Assembly (NCBI RefSeq): GCF_900110215.1
Contig: NZ_FOCX01000032.1
Location: 1-36,446, forward strand
From: Halorientalis persicus
Lineage (GTDB): Archaea > Halobacteriota > Halobacteria > Halobacteriales > Haloarculaceae
Length of the DNA stretch: 36,446 nt
Direction of reading: 5' to 3'
Shown here: one piece after another, positions 21,412 through 34,054 of the stretch
How positions within the stretch are numbered: position 1 is the first letter of the stretch
Layout of the letters: every line of letters begins with the position of its first letter
Notes under the pieces: generated by a model
The model's database searches: none
What the model was told of the DNA's origin: nothing
Seen by the model: the letters and a program-made list of their open reading frames with translations, nothing else
Position numbers and translations under genes: made by a program

Positions 21412-23157
21412 TCAGGCGAACTTCCGGATCGTCAGGTCGAGCGTATCGAGGTCGACGATGGGGGCCATCGCGGTGTCGGGGTCGATGTTGACGCTCTCCT
21501 GGAAGGCGGTCTGTTCCTGCCAGCAGCCCGAGTTGATCGTGAGGACGTTGTGGTACTTGCCGTAGCCGAACTTGTGGACGTGGCCGGCGTGGAACACGTC
21601 CGGCGTCTCCTCGATCACGAGATAATCCCGCTCCTCGGGAGCCAGCCGCGTGTGGCCGCCGAACTGGGGCGCGACGTGGCGTTTCTTCAGGAGCTGGTAC
21701 ATCGCCTTGTGCGGTTCGTCGTAGTTGGCCTTCTCGTCGGGCAACTCGGCGATCACCTCGTCCAGCGAGACGCCGTGGTACATCAGGACGGAGACGCCCT
21801 CGACGGTGACCGTCGAGGGGTTGGAGGTGATCCGGCAGTCGTGGGCCGACATGATGTCCCGGAGTTCCTCGTCGAATCCGGGTTGGGGCTCCGCGAGGCG
21901 GACGGCGTCGTGGTTGCCCGGAATCATGACGATCTCCATATCGCCCGGTACCTCCTTCAGAAACTCCGAGAACGCCCGGTACTGGTCGTAGATGTCCACG
22001 ATGTCCAGTTCCTCGTCCTGATCGGGGTAGACGCCGACGCCCTCGACCATGTCGCCCGCGATCAGCAGGTACTCGACGGCGTCGGCCTCCTCGGTGTGGA
22101 GCCAGTCGGCGAAGCGCGACCAGGCGTCGGCCATGAACTCCTGACTGCCGACGTGCACGTCGCTGACGAGGGCTGCGCTGACCTCGCGGTCGGCCGTCGA
22201 GGGCTGGTGGGTCCGGGGGATCTCCGGGAAGTAGAGGTCGTCGACGAACAGGATGCCGTCGCCGTCGCTGTTGTCGTCCGAGAGGGTCCCCTCGACGGCG
22301 ATCACCTCGTCGTGGAGCAACTCCTCGACCTGCTCGGCGGTGTCCCGGTCTTTCATCACGAGACAGGGGTAGACCCCGTTCGTGTCCTCGAGTTCGATCA
22401 GCCAGTGCCCGCTGGCCGTCGAGCGGATGTCCGAGACCATCCCCACGATGGCCGCCTCGCTTCCGCCGGCCATCGAGGAGAGCGTGTTCGTCGGACGATG
22501 GTTGATCCGACCGCGCAACTGCCGACTGAGCCGTTCGTAGCGGTCGCGAAACACGGCCACGAAGTCGCTGTACTCGCCGGTCCCCGTCGACTGGCCGGTC
22601 ATGTCCCCCTCGATCTCGACGTCGTGCAGATCGGTGTCGATTGACCGCTCGCCGGTCGCCACCGGCTCGGTCGTCGTCCGGCGGTCGGTCCCCCCTGTGG
22701 CGTCCGTTGCCACTCCCGAGCCGCCCGGCGCGTCCGTGGCAGCCGCCGCGTCCGCAGACCCCTCCGTTTCAGGTGGAACGGCATCACCGGATTCGGTGGA
22801 CGTGGTGGGGTCCGTTCCACTCGAAGCGGAGGGGTCCGTCTCCGTGGTGGCGGCGGTCGTCGCACCCGATCCGGCGGGGTTCCCGGAGCCTCCGTGGTCG
22901 GAGCCCGTCGTTTCGGTTGCGGAGTCGCCCGCGGTCGTCGCGGCGGTCGACGGCTCGGAGGGCTCGGACTCGGCCAGGGCCGATTCGACGTGGTCGGCCG
23001 AGAGCTTGATCGCGTCGTCGGGGGCGGCGTCCAGGGCGCGCTCGATCGCGCGGGCCGGGTCGTCGGCGTTCGCGAGCACGGTGACGGCCTCGCGGTCGGC
23101 GTTGTACCCGCGCTGGGCGAGTTCGTTGACGATGCGGGCGGGCGTCTCCAGCGGCAC
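21412..23157 (-). CDS. polB: DNA polymerase D small subunit DP1 (proofreading exonuclease)
   Basis: This 581-residue protein is the small subunit of the archaeal replicative polymerase PolD. From the N terminus: a helical domain (1-65), a very long low-complexity linker rich in Thr, Ser, Gly and Glu (about 66-175), an OB-fold (about 215-310, with VGMVSDIRSTASGHWLIELE), and the Mre11-like 3'-5' exonuclease domain with SDVHVGS, AGDMVEGVG, IPGNHDAV, QFGGHTRLAP and HAGHVHKFG. The motifs are intact. The start is GTG at 23157. DP1 pairs with DP2, encoded elsewhere. It is divergent from sec11, and close linkage to orc1 is common in haloarchaea. Confidence 0.95.
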   Translation of the reverse strand: MPLETPARIVNELAQRGYNADREAVTVLANADDPARAIERALDAAPDDAIKLSADHVESALAESEPSEPSTAATTAGDSATETTGSDHGGSGNPAGSGATTAATTETDPSASSGTDPTTSTESGDAVPPETEGSADAAAATDAPGGSGVATDATGGTDRRTTTEPVATGERSIDTDLHDVEIEGDMTGQSTGTGEYSDFVAVFRDRYERLSRQLRGRINHRPTNTLSSMAGGSEAAIVGMVSDIRSTASGHWLIELEDTNGVYPCLVMKDRDTAEQVEELLHDEVIAVEGTLSDDNSDGDGILFVDDLYFPEIPRTHQPSTADREVSAALVSDVHVGSQEFMADAWSRFADWLHTEEADAVEYLLIAGDMVEGVGVYPDQDEELDIVDIYDQYRAFSEFLKEVPGDMEIVMIPGNHDAVRLAEPQPGFDEELRDIMSAHDCRITSNPSTVTVEGVSVLMYHGVSLDEVIAELPDEKANYDEPHKAMYQLLKKRHVAPQFGGHTRLAPEERDYLVIEETPDVFHAGHVHKFGYGKYHNVLTINSGCWQEQTAFQESVNIDPDTAMAPIVDLDTLDLTIRKFA

Positions 23158-23969: not shown

Positions 23970-25613
23970 TCAGTTGTCGAAGCGGGCCTGCACGAACGGC
24001 TGGACATCCTCGATGTCGCCGAGGCGTGAGTCGCTGAGCAGGACCGCCTCGGTCTCGTCGATGGGTACCGAGAGGCTGATCTCCTTCGTGCGGCCGTAGC
24101 GGCCCTTGGAGACGACGACGGCGTTGACGATGCCCAGCATATCCAGTTCCGAAATGAGGTCGGTCACGCGGCGCTGGGTGAGCGTGTCGGCGTCGATCTC
24201 CTCACAGAGCCGCTTGTAGATGTTGTACACTTCGCCCGTGTTGATGTTGTGGACGCCGTTCTTTTCGAGCAGGATGATGGCGAACAGGACCAGTTTCGAC
24301 TGCGTGGGCAGGGTACGGACGACCTCGACCACCCGGTCGAGTTCGATCTTCTCCTGGGCGCGCCGGACGTGGTCCTCCTCGACGCGTTCGGTCTGGCCGC
24401 GCTCGGCGAGTTCGCCCGCCGTCCGCAGGAGGTCGAGCGCGCGGCGTGCGTCCCCGTGTTCCTGTGCGGCGAAGGCCGCACACAGCGGGATCACGTCGTC
24501 CGACAGCGCACCCTCCTCGAAGGCGTCGTCGGCGCGGTGCTGGAGGATGTCCCGGAGCTGGTTGGCGTCGTACGGCGGGAAGACGATCTCCTCCTCGCCG
24601 AGACTCGACTTGACGCGGGGGTCGAGGAAGTCGGTGAACTTCAGGTCGTTGCTGATCCCCATGATCGACACCCGCGAGTTGTCGAGTTCGGAGTTCATCC
24701 GCGAGAGGTTATAGAGCGTGTCGTCGCCGCTCTTCTCGACGAGTTTGTCGATCTCGTCGAGCATGATGACGACCACGCGCTCGTGGTAGTCGACGGCCTC
24801 GAAGAAGCTGTTGTACACGCGGTCGGTCGGCCACCCGGTCATGGGGACCTCCTCGAACTCCGCGCGGTCGTCGTCCAGGTCCTCGATCAGGGCGTCCAGT
24901 TCGTCGAGCGTGTCGACTGCGTCGATACCGGACCCCGACCCCACCGATACCCCGGTTTCGAGTGCGCTCCCGTCAGTCGATTCGAGCACGGAGGGGTTGT
25001 CTTCGGCCCGTTCGCGGAGCCCTTCCAGTTCGGCGATACGGTCGTCGATCACCTCGCGGTTCTTGTCGATGAACTTGTTGGCCAGCTGTGCGAGGACCCG
25101 GTACTGAGTGTCGGTGACCTCACAGTTGATGTACTGGACCTCACAGGGGACTTCGTACTTCTGTGAGGTGGTTTCGAGTTCCTCGCTGACGAACTTCGCG
25201 CTCGCGGTCTTGCCGGTCCCGGTCTTCCCGTAGATGAGGATGTTCGAGGGCGTATCGCCCCGGAGCGCGGAGACGAGGATCGTCGCCATGTTGTTGATCT
25301 GTTCCTGTCGGTGGGGAAGCTCCCGCGGCGTGTACGACGGGCGCAACACTTCCTTGTTCTCGAAGATCGGTGCGCCGCTGAGCAGGTCGTCGAACAGCCC
25401 ACGCGAGGCCTCGTCGAGGTCCTCGTCCTCGTCGACATCGTCGAGCACCACATCGTCCAGCGACGAGTCGGCGTCGGCCGCCTCGACGTCGACACTGGGT
25501 CGGCTCTCGCCGCCCGTGTCGTCGAGCGGTGCCTGCTCACCGGACGCGTCTCGCCCGTCTGGCTTCCCCGCTCCCGTGTCCGGTCCGTCGGATTCGTTCC
25601 CGCTTCCTGTCAT
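23970..25613 (-). CDS. orc1: Replication initiator Orc1/Cdc6 (oriC1 type)
   Basis: This 547-residue origin-binding protein recognises origin boxes and loads the MCM helicase. After an acidic disordered N terminus (1-75) come the AAA+ domain with Walker A YGKTGTGKTASAK (128-140), Walker B VVIMLDEIDKL, sensor 1 MGISNDLKF and the sensor 2 region EHGDARRALDLLRTAGELAE, then a C-terminal winged helix (SKLVLFAIILLEKNGVHNIN ... SKGRYGRTKEISLS). A 70-residue Asp/Glu-rich insertion before MTGWPTDRVY is usual in haloarchaeal orthologs. The ATG at 25613 is chosen; further upstream an ORB-like box overlaps its promoter, suggesting self-control. It is transcribed away from the adjacent origin. Confidence 0.97.
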   Translation of the reverse strand: MTGSGNESDGPDTGAGKPDGRDASGEQAPLDDTGGESRPSVDVEAADADSSLDDVVLDDVDEDEDLDEASRGLFDDLLSGAPIFENKEVLRPSYTPRELPHRQEQINNMATILVSALRGDTPSNILIYGKTGTGKTASAKFVSEELETTSQKYEVPCEVQYINCEVTDTQYRVLAQLANKFIDKNREVIDDRIAELEGLRERAEDNPSVLESTDGSALETGVSVGSGSGIDAVDTLDELDALIEDLDDDRAEFEEVPMTGWPTDRVYNSFFEAVDYHERVVVIMLDEIDKLVEKSGDDTLYNLSRMNSELDNSRVSIMGISNDLKFTDFLDPRVKSSLGEEEIVFPPYDANQLRDILQHRADDAFEEGALSDDVIPLCAAFAAQEHGDARRALDLLRTAGELAERGQTERVEEDHVRRAQEKIELDRVVEVVRTLPTQSKLVLFAIILLEKNGVHNINTGEVYNIYKRLCEEIDADTLTQRRVTDLISELDMLGIVNAVVVSKGRYGRTKEISLSVPIDETEAVLLSDSRLGDIEDVQPFVQARFDN

Positions 25614-25909: not shown

Positions 25910-26042
25910 ACCAGCCCTGCCGTGGTCGGGATCGGTAGCCGAAACGTGACGGTGGCCAGGCTGAGTGAACGTCTCCGACCGATCCCGGCCCAGCCGTGGC
26001 GGCGTTATTGATTGTGGGCGCGCGTTAGGCCGATCGAGAACG

Positions 26043-26082
26043 TTCCATGCCATGTGTGTTCATTCCATGTCATGTGTGTACA
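26043..26082 (+). repeat. 20-bp tandem repeat, two copies
   Basis: Two adjacent 20-bp units (26043-26062 and 26063-26082), each of the form TTCCATG(C/T)CATGTGTGT(T/A)CA, with two differences between them. It is unrelated to the ORB motif and lies about 260 bases left of the left full box. Confidence 0.8.
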
Positions 26083-26343: not shown

Positions 26344-26376
26344 GGAACCCCCCCACCCCTTCGTTTCGGGTGGAAC
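26344..26376 (-). repeat. Full origin recognition box (left ORB)
   Basis: On the reverse strand it begins GTTCCACCCGAAACGAAGGG and continues with a halophile-type G-string (GGGGTGGGGGGG). It matches the right box at all of the first 28 positions except one. The core faces the AT-richer segment and the G-string points away from it. Confidence 0.85.
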
Positions 26377-26407
26377 GGCGCGGGAAGGGGTGGGGGGACC
26401 CCCCTGT

Positions 26408-26545
26408 CTAGAGAGGGAAACGGTTAAGTTACCACTACAAAAACCAAACCCGTAGAACTTCGAAACACCTGTTCTTCTAGTGGAGCTAGTATGTTGTGTG
26501 GCTAGTCCTAGGGAAAACCGCTAGACTAGCGGAAACCAGGACTAG
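26408..26545. other. AT-richer core (probable unwinding element) with CTAG-rich nested hairpin
   Basis: This segment between the two full boxes is clearly lower in GC than its flanks: 35 of 60 bases are A or T in 26421-26480. It contains CTAG eight times. CCGCTAG-A-CTAGCGG (26518-26532) is a perfect dyad, enclosed by CTAGTCCT (26502-26509) and its complement AGGACTAG (26538-26545). The position is that of the duplex unwinding element. Confidence 0.75.
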
Positions 26546-26618
26546 AGGCGCGCTCCCGTGTGGTACCCTGCGTTCCCGACTGCGATCCGGTTCTCACCCC
26601 CGCCCCGTCGTTCCTGAC

Positions 26619-27071: not shown

Positions 27072-27701
27072 ATGGGACTGATCACGGACATCCGAGACAG
27101 TATTTCGTCGTTGTTCTCGGCGCAGGACCCGAAGCGAATCGGTATCTACGGTCCACCAAACGCCGGGAAGACGACGCTGGCGAACCGCATCGCTCGCGAC
27201 TGGACAGGTGACGCTATCGGCCCGGAGAGTCACATTCCACACGAAACACGCCGCGCACGCAGGAAGGAGAACGTCGAGATCGAGCGCAACGGCAAGTCGG
27301 TCACCATCGACGTGGTCGACACGCCCGGTGTGACGACGAAGGTCGACTACACCGAGTTCCTCGAACACGACATGGAGAAAGACGACGCCGTCCGGCGCTC
27401 CCGAGAGGCTACCGAGGGCGTCGCCGAGGCCATGCACTGGCTCCGCGAGGACGTCGACGGCGTTCTCTACGTGCTGGACTCGACGGAAGACCCGTTCACG
27501 CAGGTGAACACCATGCTCGTTGGCATCATCGAGAGTCAGGACCTCCCCGTCCTGATCCTCGCGAACAAGACCGACCTCGAGGACTCGAACGTCCGTCGCA
27601 TCGAGAACGCCTTCCCACAGCACGAGACGCTGCCGCTGTCGGCGCTGGAGGGCGACAACATGGACGAGGTCTACGACAAGATCGCGGAGTACTTCGGGTG
27701 A
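27072..27701 (+). CDS. oapA: Era-like GTPase, origin-associated protein A
   Basis: This 209-residue GTPase has a complete G domain: G1 GPPNAGKTT (27-35), G3 VDTPG (82-86), G4 NKTD (165-168) and the G5-like SALEG. Between G1 and G3 a region HIPHETRRARRKENV probably forms switch I. There is no KH or other RNA-binding domain as in bacterial Era. Next to the haloarchaeal oriC1 this gene is conserved together with the two following ones and is known as an origin-associated gene (oapA). It is believed to affect replication from this origin, but its exact job is not settled. It reads away from the origin. Confidence 0.85.
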   Translation: MGLITDIRDSISSLFSAQDPKRIGIYGPPNAGKTTLANRIARDWTGDAIGPESHIPHETRRARRKENVEIERNGKSVTIDVVDTPGVTTKVDYTEFLEHDMEKDDAVRRSREATEGVAEAMHWLREDVDGVLYVLDSTEDPFTQVNTMLVGIIESQDLPVLILANKTDLEDSNVRRIENAFPQHETLPLSALEGDNMDEVYDKIAEYFG

Positions 27702-27707
27702 TAACGG

Positions 27708-28100
27708 ATGCCTGAAGTCAAAAAAGCCGGCGACGGCGACGACGGCGTACAGATCGACCTCATCAGCGGCGAGCGCATGGAGAACATGACCTCGATGGAG
27801 AAGATCCGGATGATCCTCGACGGCGTCCACGAGGGGAACATCGTCATCCTCGAGGAGGGACTCTCGCCCGACGAGGAGTCACGGCTCATCGAGGTCACGA
27901 TGACCGAGATCAGTCCCGACGAGTTCAACGGGATCGAGATCGAGACCTATCCCCAGTCCGGGAGCACGGACTCGGGCCTGCTCAATCGCCTGATGGGCAA
28001 CAACGAGACGAAGAAGCTGACCGTTATCGGGCCGGCCAACCAGATCGAGACGCTCCACAAGGACGAGACGCTGATCAGCGCCCTGGTCTCACGGAAATAA
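27708..28100 (+). CDS. oapB: DUF2073 protein, origin-associated protein B
   Basis: This 130-residue protein matches the DUF2073 family found only in archaea, with the typical block VQIDLISGERMENMTSMEKI, then RMILDGVHEGNIVILEEGLS and GIEIETYPQ. The end, KKLTVIGPANQIETLHKDET, is also conserved. No catalytic motif is visible. It follows oapA by 6 bases and its stop overlaps the next start (TAATG), so the three are one operon. The constant link to the GTPase suggests the two proteins work together, perhaps as a regulated switch. Confidence 0.85.
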   Translation: MPEVKKAGDGDDGVQIDLISGERMENMTSMEKIRMILDGVHEGNIVILEEGLSPDEESRLIEVTMTEISPDEFNGIEIETYPQSGSTDSGLLNRLMGNNETKKLTVIGPANQIETLHKDETLISALVSRK

Positions 28101-28849
28101 TGCCCCACCAGTGTACGAACTGTGGCCAGGTGTTCGACGACGGCTCCAAGGAGATGCTGTCGGGCTGTCCCGACTGTGGCGGGAACAAGTTCCAGTTCCA
28201 CGCCTCGACCGAGGACGTGCCCGCGGAACCGGAGCCGTCCGCCGAGCCACCGGACCCACCGACACCCGATAGCTCCGTGGCCCGCACCGTCGGGAACGCG
28301 GCCGCGACCGTCCGCGACCTGGTCGGCAGTTCGGGGTCACAGTCCGCAGGCGCGCCCGACGACGATCCGTCGAGCCGGGACCCTGCCCCGGCCGACTCCA
28401 TCCCGTCGGAGCCGGCTCCGGCGCCGGACCGAACGCCGGCCGACGCCCCTGCGTCCCGGGAGGACGCGGCACAGGCCGACGCCCGGAGCGAAGTCGTCAA
28501 CCCCGACGAGATCCCTGCGGGCAGTGACTCGCCCACGGGCACCGAGACACCTGCGACCGACGACACGACAGCGACCGAGAACGTCGAATCCGACGCGACC
28601 GGTCCGAGCGCCACGCCCGACCCGGCCGGCGATGCCGGCGGTCGCGTCGCCAGCGAACCCAGCGAGGACCGCCCGGACCTCAGCGAACTCCGGGAGGAAC
28701 TCAACGACCAGTTCGAGAGCATCAAGGTCCTCAGCCCCGGCCAGTACGAACTCAACCTGATGGAGCTGTACGACCGCGAGGAGTACATCATCGCCCTGCA
28801 GGAAGACGGGCGGTACACGATCCAGGTGCCCGAGAACTGGCACGATTGA
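28100..28849 (+). CDS. oapC: Zinc-ribbon protein, origin-associated protein C
   Basis: This 249-residue protein has three parts. Residues 1-32 form a zinc ribbon with CTNC (5-8) and CPDC (23-26). Residues about 40-185 are disordered, rich in Pro, Ala, Asp, Ser and Thr, with no fold visible. The last 60 residues, with LREELNDQFESIKVLSPGQY and ELNLMELYDREEYIIALQED, form a conserved domain ending in TIQVPENWHD. This layout is that of the third gene of the oap operon. A zinc ribbon and a long tether could join DNA or RNA to the other two proteins. The start overlaps the oapB stop by one base. Confidence 0.85.
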   Translation: MPHQCTNCGQVFDDGSKEMLSGCPDCGGNKFQFHASTEDVPAEPEPSAEPPDPPTPDSSVARTVGNAAATVRDLVGSSGSQSAGAPDDDPSSRDPAPADSIPSEPAPAPDRTPADAPASREDAAQADARSEVVNPDEIPAGSDSPTGTETPATDDTTATENVESDATGPSATPDPAGDAGGRVASEPSEDRPDLSELREELNDQFESIKVLSPGQYELNLMELYDREEYIIALQEDGRYTIQVPENWHD

Positions 28850-31441: not shown

Positions 31442-34054
31442 CTACCCCTCGTAGTCGCTCCCGACGATCTCCCGGATGCGCTCGGCGGTCACCGCACCGA
31501 CGCCCTCGACTTCTTGGAGGTCGTCCTCGTTCGCGGTCATGACTGCCTCGACGGTCCCGAAGTGAGCCAGCAGCGACCGCGCGGTGACCGGGCCGACCTC
31601 CGCGATAGCGGCGACGACGTACTCCTGTTGTTCGGCCAGCGTCTTGGACTGTTTCTCGCCGTGGACGCTCACCTCCCGATCCTCCTGCTCTTGCTCCCGG
31701 GTGGCGATCACTTCCATGAGGTCGGCGGTGTCGTCCTCGTCGTCGGTCCGGAGGACGCTCGCGCCGAAGTCCACGACGAGCGAGGACAGCGCCCCGCGGA
31801 CGGCGTTGGGGTGGACGTTGCGCTCGCCGTAGAGGTCCGAACCCTCGACGATCACGACCGGACGGGCGTAGTGGCGGGTGGCGTCGCCGACCTGCTCGAA
31901 CATCGAGCGGTCCCCGCCGGTGAGCGTGTCCAGAAAGTCACCCACCGTTTTCCGCTCGACCACGACCCGATCCGAGAGAACGTAGTCGCCGACCGCCAGC
32001 GTCTCCAGGCGCGTCTCGATCCCGTCGCGGGTCGAGAGGTCCCGCGCGATGGTCGAGTCCAGTTCCCGCTGGTCGGCCACGATCTCGACCGCCTCGCCGT
32101 CGGGTTCGGCCTCGGCGACGACGCCCTCGTCGGCGTCGCCGCCACTGTCACCGCCCGCCGACCCCTCCGTTTCGTCTCCGCCGGCCGACGCTTCGGCGTC
32201 GCCACTCCCGTCGGACCCCCCCGTTTCGTCTCCGCCGGCCGACGCTTCGGCGTCGCCACTCCCGTCGGACCCCCCCGTTTCGTCTCCGCCGGCCGACCGG
32301 TTCGTCCCGTCGGCGGCGAAGGCCGAGAGCCCGGACTGGCCCGCCGTCTGTGCCGCTGTCGCCCGATCACTCCCCTCGCCGCGCTCCGTTTCAACTGCGG
32401 TGTCACCGTCTTCGTTCGACCCCTCGGTTTCGTCTCCACCGGCGGACGTGTCGGTCTCGCTACCGGCGTCGGCGTAGTCGTCGAGTTTCGTCCCGTGGAG
32501 TTCGGACTCGATCTCCCCGGCGACGGACTTGAGATCGCGCAACTCCTGTTCCATGCGCTTCTCGTCGTTCCGGGACTTCCAGAAGTAGGCCTCGTCGCGG
32601 GTGTCCTCGGCCAGCAGGACGATCACGCGCCCCTCGGTCTGGCGACCGGTCCGGCCCTTCCGCTGGATCGAGCGGATCGCGGTTGGGACGGGTTCGTAGA
32701 ACAGTACGAGGTCGACCTCGGGCACGTCCAGCCCCTCCTCGGCGACCGAGGTCGAGACCAGCACCTCGAACTCGCCGGCCCGGAACGCGTCCAGGGTCTC
32801 CTGCTGTTCGGTCTGAGTCATCCCGTCGCTGCCCTCGGTGTCGCTTTGCCCGACGAACTTTCGGGTCTCGAAGTGGTCGCCGAGGAACTCGACGAGCGTC
32901 TCGGCGGTGTCCCGCGATTCGGTGAAGACGATGACGCGCTCGCCGTCGTTGAGCCCGAGGGTCTCGGCCAGCAGGATGCGGGCCTGCCTGAACTTCGGGT
33001 GGAGGTCGTCGTAGTCCTCGGCCCGGCGCATCGCCTCGCGGACTTTCGGGTCCGAGACCAGCCGCTGGTCGGCCTTGGAGGCCCCGGAGGCGCGGGCGGC
33101 CTGTTTCAGCCGCTCGAAATATCTGCGGAGCGACTCCACGCTCTGGGTTTCGACGTAGTTGACCGCGGTGTTGAGCTTCCGGATCTCGGCGTGGAGGCTC
33201 ATCCCCTCGTACCCCTCTGACTGGTCGTTGTTCATCAGCTCCCGGAGTTTCGACTGGATGCGGACGAGTTCCTTCTCCGAGAGGTCCGGGCTGGTCTTGT
33301 TGGTCACCCCGAGCTCTTTGAGCTTCCCCAGCCGGTCCGAGATCACGTCGTTGAGCGCGTCCCGAATCTCGATCACTGCCTCGGGCAACTCGACGCGTTT
33401 CCAGGTGAGGTCGGTCTCGTGGGTGTACTCGGCCACGTCCGCGTCGTCCTCTGTCATCACCTCGACCTCCCGGAGCCCGAGGTTCTCACAGACCTGCAGG
33501 ATCGCCTCCTCGTCGCCGCCGGGGGAGGCACTCATCGCCGTCACCAGCGGGTCGTCGGCGTCGGCGTGGTAGCGCTCGGCGATGTAGTTGTAGGCGTAGT
33601 CGCCGCTGGCGCGGTGACACTCGTCGAAGGTCAGATGGGTCACGTCGGCAAGGGAGATGCGGTTGCCCACGAGGTCGTTCTCGACGACCTGCGGGGTGGC
33701 GATGACGATGCGGGCGTCGTCCCAGAGGTCGGATCGGTCGTCGGGCCTGACCTCGCCGGTGAAGACGACGATCTCCTCGTCGGGAATCTCCAGGGCTTCG
33801 CGGTAGAACTCGGCGTGCTGGGTCACGAGGGGTTTGGTCGGCGCGAGAAAGAGCGCCGTCCCGCCGACCTCGTGGAGGCGGTCGGCGGTGACCAGCAGGC
33901 TCACCGTGGTCTTGCCCAGACCCGTCGGGAGACAGACCAGGGTATGGTCCGCGACGGCGGCCTCGGCGAGTTCGACCTGGTACTGCCGGTCTTCCAGCAA
34001 CCCCTCGGTCAACAGGGGGTGCTCGACGTGTCCGACCTCGTCGGTCGCTGCCAT
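31442..34054 (-). CDS. hef: Hef helicase-nuclease (XPF/FANCM-like)
   Basis: This 870-residue fork-repair protein has an N-terminal SF2 helicase with Walker A LPTGLGKTT (42-50), DECH (144-147), TAMSASPGG (motif III), TSVAEEGLDVPEVDLV, and QRKGRTGRQ (motif VI). A disordered acidic linker (about 560-680) follows, then the XPF nuclease with the active-site region DRVVVERKTVGDFLDTL (GDx(n)ERKx3D) and a final HhH pair (EVGPVTARSLLAHFGTV, VEGVGAVTAERI). All catalytic motifs are intact. Its job is processing of stalled forks. The linker contains exact tandem repeats. Being near the origin is normal for haloarchaea. Confidence 0.97.
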   Translation of the reverse strand: MAATDEVGHVEHPLLTEGLLEDRQYQVELAEAAVADHTLVCLPTGLGKTTVSLLVTADRLHEVGGTALFLAPTKPLVTQHAEFYREALEIPDEEIVVFTGEVRPDDRSDLWDDARIVIATPQVVENDLVGNRISLADVTHLTFDECHRASGDYAYNYIAERYHADADDPLVTAMSASPGGDEEAILQVCENLGLREVEVMTEDDADVAEYTHETDLTWKRVELPEAVIEIRDALNDVISDRLGKLKELGVTNKTSPDLSEKELVRIQSKLRELMNNDQSEGYEGMSLHAEIRKLNTAVNYVETQSVESLRRYFERLKQAARASGASKADQRLVSDPKVREAMRRAEDYDDLHPKFRQARILLAETLGLNDGERVIVFTESRDTAETLVEFLGDHFETRKFVGQSDTEGSDGMTQTEQQETLDAFRAGEFEVLVSTSVAEEGLDVPEVDLVLFYEPVPTAIRSIQRKGRTGRQTEGRVIVLLAEDTRDEAYFWKSRNDEKRMEQELRDLKSVAGEIESELHGTKLDDYADAGSETDTSAGGDETEGSNEDGDTAVETERGEGSDRATAAQTAGQSGLSAFAADGTNRSAGGDETGGSDGSGDAEASAGGDETGGSDGSGDAEASAGGDETEGSAGGDSGGDADEGVVAEAEPDGEAVEIVADQRELDSTIARDLSTRDGIETRLETLAVGDYVLSDRVVVERKTVGDFLDTLTGGDRSMFEQVGDATRHYARPVVIVEGSDLYGERNVHPNAVRGALSSLVVDFGASVLRTDDEDDTADLMEVIATREQEQEDREVSVHGEKQSKTLAEQQEYVVAAIAEVGPVTARSLLAHFGTVEAVMTANEDDLQEVEGVGAVTAERIREIVGSDYEG
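32167..32298 (-). repeat. 54-bp tandem repeat in the hef linker
   Basis: The unit occurs perfectly twice (32167-32220 and 32221-32274) and then partly a third time to about 32298. It encodes 18 residues of the type GGSDGSGDAEASAGGDET. The period keeps the reading frame. Similar GGDETEGS segments on both sides are older, diverged copies. Confidence 0.9.

Follow-up and report, generated by a model that had tools for sequence, protein, structure and literature searches.

Organization of the oriC1 locus

The window analysed here, a 36,446-nucleotide stretch of the Halorientalis persicus genome, contains the main replication origin, oriC1, with the following features.

23970–25613, minus strand: orc1/cdc6 initiator gene beside oriC1 (Pfam Cdc6_C 1.9e-33, Cdc6_lid 1.4e-30)
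26356–26376, plus strand: left ORB, CCCCTTCGTTTCGGGTGGAAC, preceded by its G-string and forming an inverted repeat with the right ORB; arrangement as in Haloarcula hispanica oriC1 (PMC3936714)
26387–26404, no strand assigned: G-rich element, GGGGTGGGGGGACCCCCC, just inside the left ORB (from its sequence and PMC3936714)
26408–26545, no strand assigned: array of eight CTAG tetramers, at 26408, 26477, 26486, 26502, 26508, 26521, 26526 and 26542
26518–26532, no strand assigned: dyad CCGCTAG-A-CTAGCGG, formed by two neighbouring CTAGs
26596–26606, no strand assigned: element inside the right ORB (from its sequence, by comparison with PMC3936714)
26620–26640, minus strand: right inverted ORB, TTCCACCTGAAACGAAGGGG, followed by its G-string; inverted repeat with the left ORB
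27072–27701, plus strand: origin-associated GTPase gene at the OapA position (Pfam MMR_HSR1 6.1e-14), adjoining oapB
27708–28100, plus strand: oapB (Pfam OapB 5.3e-43)
28100–28849, plus strand: oapC (Pfam OapC 6.3e-29)

This is the layout by which haloarchaeal oriC1 is recognized: an A/T-richer region between inverted ORBs with G-strings adjoins orc1/cdc6, here the best Cdc6_C match of the genome, and oapABC lies alongside, with OapB and OapC assigned by Pfam and the GTPase by its position. The GTPase is 100% identical to its Halorientalis pallida counterpart. Genes for a DNA polymerase small-subunit-like protein and a Hef-like helicase/nuclease, both of the replication/repair class, are found in the origin vicinity (21412–23157 and 31442–34054). 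Between orc1 and the left ORB, positions 26038–26078 hold a near-repeat, CCATG(C)CATGTGTGT ... CCATGTCATGTGTGT, with four CATG per 30 bp.

In H. hispanica oriC1 both ORBs and their G-strings are required, and enhancer activity comes from a G-rich inverted repeat located within the pair (Wu et al., PMC3936714). Judged by its sequence, the G-rich element at 26387–26404 is likely to be the counterpart of enhancer element III of that origin. The first CTAG starts three bases past it, and across genomes a G/C run directly precedes the tetramer in 60 of the 64 cases in which a CTAG lies 28–50 bp inside the left ORB. All eight CTAGs sit inside the inverted ORB pair.

CTAG is avoided in the chromosome and dense at oriC1

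An exact pattern search confirmed the eight CTAGs that the initial annotation had placed in 26408–26545; it had also described CTAG as one of the rarest tetramers of haloarchaeal genomes. A 96-kb sample of the Halorientalis chromosome contained 20 CTAGs against 292 expected (observed/expected 0.07, ∼0.2 per kb), an approximately fourteen-fold avoidance. Outside the array the window holds only four, the expected total from dinucleotide shuffles being 41. CTAG density in the array is thus ∼280 times the chromosomal background, and eight sites in the 243 bp between the ORBs amount to about nine times the expectation from composition. When the comparison was extended to the entire 4.87-Mb genome, close CTAG triples occurred at 21 places, five of which are overlapping matches within the oriC1 block; no other place yields as many. 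The block is well beyond chance.

The genome contains eleven further orc/cdc6 genes, and four of them have at least three CTAGs within a 100-bp stretch upstream, as listed below.

Loci L164, L166, L168 and L169: CTAG clusters upstream of further orc genes, at ∼250–440 bp for C70, C84 and C22 and at ∼900 bp for C115

Several of the eleven have no upstream cluster, and A/T-richer contigs carry additional clusters remote from any orc gene.

Site number is conserved between the ORBs

Inter-ORB sequences were compared for ORB pairs 150–400 bp apart (automatic pairing gave none for 26 loci). Among 26 genomes of the family, chosen by kinship, CTAG occurred 149 times between the ORBs against 25.0 expected, making it the most over-represented of the 256 tetramers. 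GTAC, GATC, TTAA and CTAA were not enriched in the same set, with observed/expected ratios of 0.72 for GTAC, 1.01 for TTAA and 0.71 for CTAA, and 0.40 for TTAG. CATG, which is mildly rare in the chromosome (0.61), was absent from these intervals (0 seen, 25 expected).

The sites persist where the surrounding sequence has changed. In alignments with close congeners, CTAG was retained at 8/8, 7/8, 5/8 and 3/8 positions, compared with retained fractions of 0.62, 0.34, 0.21 and 0.15, respectively, for other tetramers. Fresh CTAGs also appear at other positions in relatives, which indicates that the number of sites is held more than their exact position. Across 347 sites, the sole signal beyond the tetramer itself was a weak leaning towards A/T in the base next to it (0.20 bits), so that a longer operator around CTAG was rejected.

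Regarding spacing, pairs of CTAGs 5 or 21 bp apart were over-represented in 63 genomes (24 versus 9.3 and 24 versus 9.7 expected, with shared ancestry partly removed). Helical phasing at 10–11 bp was not seen with one genome per genus, and a 5.25-bp periodicity was marginal (p = 0.04, among several periods tested), so we make no claim for it. In lineages that carry just one site or two, 20 of 32 were located 30–40 or 125–137 bp inside the left ORB, a grouping made post hoc.

The nested hairpin is a by-product of neighbouring CTAGs

The initial annotation had pointed to the dyad at 26518–26532 and to nearly concentric arms at 26502–26509 and 26538–26545 as a possible cruciform at melting. Both are present at these coordinates. 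Because CTAG is self-complementary, any two copies will form arms. With the eight tetramers kept in place and the remaining bases shuffled, 58% of shuffles contained an arm of 7 bp or longer, and 12% an arm of at least 8 bp together with a second of at least 7 bp. The segment 26496–26551 did fold better than its dinucleotide shuffles (z −3.5), which would favour a conserved nested structure acting at initiation; however, this segment was picked for looking paired, and the whole block reached only z −1.4. The arms were also not conserved in congeners: two of the 14 arm pairs were each broken in four of the five aligned sequences (for the dyad, alignment pair 24–36), and covariation among these five was not clearly above that of shuffles. 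A search for known RNA elements gave sub-threshold matches only. The nested hairpin is a by-product of neighbouring CTAGs, and with the cruciform reading largely refuted by the loss of arms in congeners, we regard a role for it at initiation as barely credible.

A predicted orphan CTAG methyltransferase

The genome contains one full-length match to N6/N4 methyltransferases, a 351-residue protein with a TSPPY motif. Among annotated plasmid records, it resembles an enzyme of the Methanothermobacter plasmid pFZ1 (49% identity over 92%), which carries the MthZI CTAG system. On that plasmid the methyltransferase gene adjoins a gene for a restriction endonuclease of the MjaI family. MjaI cleaves CTAG. 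A search of the Halorientalis genome for an MjaI-type endonuclease found none. By homology, the genome encodes a conserved, putative orphan m4C-CTAG methyltransferase without a detectable MjaI-type nuclease. m4C at CTAG has been measured in Haloarcula marismortui (by SMRT sequencing) and in Haloferax mediterranei (PMC6606915), and Haloferax volcanii loses its CTAG methylation when three methyltransferase genes, HVO_0794 among them, are deleted (PMC5867850). The CTAG sites of the Halorientalis origin are presumably methylated as well.

Distribution of array and enzyme

At least three inter-ORB CTAGs were present in 53 of 81 near-complete genomes with the enzyme and in none of 45 without it, a contrast that is confounded with phylogeny as most of the 45 are Halorubrum. 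The remaining 28 of the 81 possess the enzyme without a cluster; Halorussus and most Haloferacaceae keep the enzyme and have 0–2 inter-ORB sites. Halorubrum allows the comparison within one genus. Its oriC1 has a recognizable ORB pair and no array (∼0.2 CTAG per 100 bp between the ORBs), and among 49 origins the mean number of CTAGs was 0.25 with the enzyme (n=8) and 0.37 without it (n=41; p = 0.75). Halorubrum with the enzyme are no richer in origin CTAG, which argues that possession of the enzyme does not create the array. The published link, by which a genome with the enzyme should also have the cluster, did not hold inside this genus, and the enzyme alone is insufficient for the array. In some Halorubrum (L112, L120) no ORB pair is found near oapA, and orc1 and oriC1 are located elsewhere.

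A density of at least three CTAGs per 200 bp was seen in 87 of the 88 genomes sampled from the family. The one outlier, G238, lacks CTAG throughout the 2.1 kb surrounding oriC1. It is also the one genome among 109 of the family, all at least 90% complete, in which the enzyme was undetected by a fused Orc1-plus-methyltransferase query, enzyme presence for many of the genomes being read from the match count. This within-family loss is a single genome of 90% completeness, and the enzyme may lie in its missing part. The compared stretch contains 7 to 12 CTAGs, partly outside the ORB pair, in the four congeners of G238 (Halosegnis group). In G238 itself the inner sites carry substitutions (CTAG to CTAC, for example), and the outer part is shorter.

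In three genomes of the Halosegnis group (G235–G237, loci L269–L271) the main CTAG cluster is on the orc1 side, beyond the ORB pair. These three have 2 GATC per 2.1 kb and G238 has 27. Clustered GATC was considered as a substitute for CTAG in enzyme-less genomes and rejected: the GATCs of G238 are spread out and mostly beyond the ORB pair, and inter-ORB GATC in Halorubrum is close to the expectation from composition.

Alternative explanations of the array

A protein recognizing CTAG, TrpR-like or nucleoid-associated, could use the array as its binding sites, with methylation irrelevant or modulating. The conservation of the array between the ORBs, where accessory proteins act in other archaea (Sulfolobus UBP/ucm, PMC12141716), and the excess of 5- and 21-bp spacings are consistent with such a protein. 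Against it stand flanks nearly devoid of information, the lack of helical phasing when one genome per genus was used, and the disappearance of the sites in G238, the sole family genome with the enzyme undetected. We consider this explanation unlikely. The earlier suggestion of a site for a protein other than Orc1 therefore survives only as a protein reading CTAG itself, and fails for any longer site given the near-uninformative flanks.

The array fills the inter-ORB region where melting is expected, and its flexible TA steps might ease unwinding as part of the unwinding element, independently of methylation. Since other TA-containing words are not enriched between the ORBs, flexibility through TA steps was rejected; an oriC1 with a recognizable ORB pair also exists without the array in Halorubrum, and this explanation appears distinctly improbable. 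Alternatively, the cluster might merely reflect relaxed avoidance of CTAG in A/T-richer non-coding DNA, and within this genome CTAG density is indeed higher on the replicons richer in A/T. This is very improbable: the family-wide inter-ORB excess and the approximately ninefold excess over composition in Halorientalis refute it, and inter-ORB DNA of Halorubrum, although of lower G+C content, holds few CTAGs.

A proposed methylation-based model

We propose that the block is probably a target-site array for an orphan N4-cytosine CTAG methyltransferase, lying within the ORB pair of oriC1 and most likely with a Dam-like role. Of the three possibilities raised in the initial annotation, a methylation mark timing initiation is best supported, in that the enzyme appears to be encoded, the cluster is conserved through the family and it is absent from G238, in which the enzyme was undetected; its effect on initiation is what we infer, and timing by methylation is plausible. 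In E. coli oriC, clustered GATC sites, hemimethylated in each round of replication, mediate control by Dam and SeqA. By analogy with those sites, hemimethylation of the CTAG array would most likely report replication. CTAG is palindromic, so that every site would become hemimethylated upon passage of the fork. From the combined methylation of many adjacent sites, the initiation machinery, or a CTAG reader, could then sense whether the origin had recently fired, and hemi- or full methylation could alter Orc1 binding, melting or sequestration and thereby set the timing. The steps leading from sequence to enzyme are supported by the comparisons above; how methylation would in turn control Orc1, melting or a reader is conjectural. 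A fuller version, held tentatively and with somewhat less than even confidence, is that oriC1 firing in Haloarculaceae is timed or licensed by the m4C state of the inter-ORB array, that a reader of hemimethylated CTAG exists and that the array decays upon loss of the methyltransferase, together constituting an archaeal counterpart of Dam/SeqA.

Few orphan methyltransferases of haloarchaea are as conserved as the CTAG enzyme, and its function is described as unknown in the studies consulted here. That the origin is densely packed with a presumably methylated word avoided by the chromosome suggests a chemical mark at the origin, probably the counterpart of that set by Dam. The array offers a small and precise target, eight tetramers between two ORBs; it is near-universal in the family and is carried by Haloarcula, for which oriC1 plasmids and gene deletions exist. 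The Halorubrum and Haloferax volcanii results also suggest a reason for which a test in Haloferax could miss the function: oriC1 outside the family mostly lacks the array.

Comparison with known systems

The proposed likeness to Dam/SeqA lies in an orphan methyltransferase and in clustered palindromic sites within the origin that would be hemimethylated in every round. In contrast to the E. coli system, the modification here would be m4C rather than m6A and the origin is of the archaeal Orc1/ORB type; furthermore, GATC is common in E. coli, whereas CTAG is avoided elsewhere in the haloarchaeal chromosome. We know of no SeqA-like reader of CTAG.

Among archaeal origins, the G-rich inverted repeat enhancer of H. 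hispanica is likewise accessory to oriC1 and lies just within its ORBs, but it differs in sequence and the CTAG sites were outside the tests of that study (PMC3936714). The Sulfolobus ucm/UBP system also adds an accessory origin element to the initiator boxes; it has a known binding protein, and it is likened to the CTAG array by description and not by sequence (PMC12141716).

The closest precedent is the report that CTAG clusters occur upstream of orc1/cdc6 in haloarchaea and correlate with an orphan methyltransferase, a role in replication being proposed (Blow et al. 2016, PMC4752239; the motif is printed as CATG in the text and as CTAG in a figure legend). The statement in the initial annotation that such a block has no described function is thus superseded. 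In H. volcanii only oriC2 is CTAG-dense, and a strain without methyltransferases including the CTAG enzyme had no growth defect (Ouellette et al. 2018, PMC5867850); the role of the enzyme was left open by Fullmer et al. 2019. The Halorientalis array shares with the clusters of Blow et al. (their Fig. 6D) the motif, the gene-scale place, the enzyme family and the proposed role: CTAG is dense upstream of orc1/cdc6, clusters occur at several origins, and the putative orphan methyltransferase is found in the same genome. Their motif density was computed over 50 kb, while the present analysis resolves the sites to the inter-ORB interval. The array is a new, well-resolved instance of an already reported phenomenon, to which we add its placement within the ORB pair, the retention and flank analyses, the rejection of the hairpin, an independent loss within the family and the Halorubrum counter-example.
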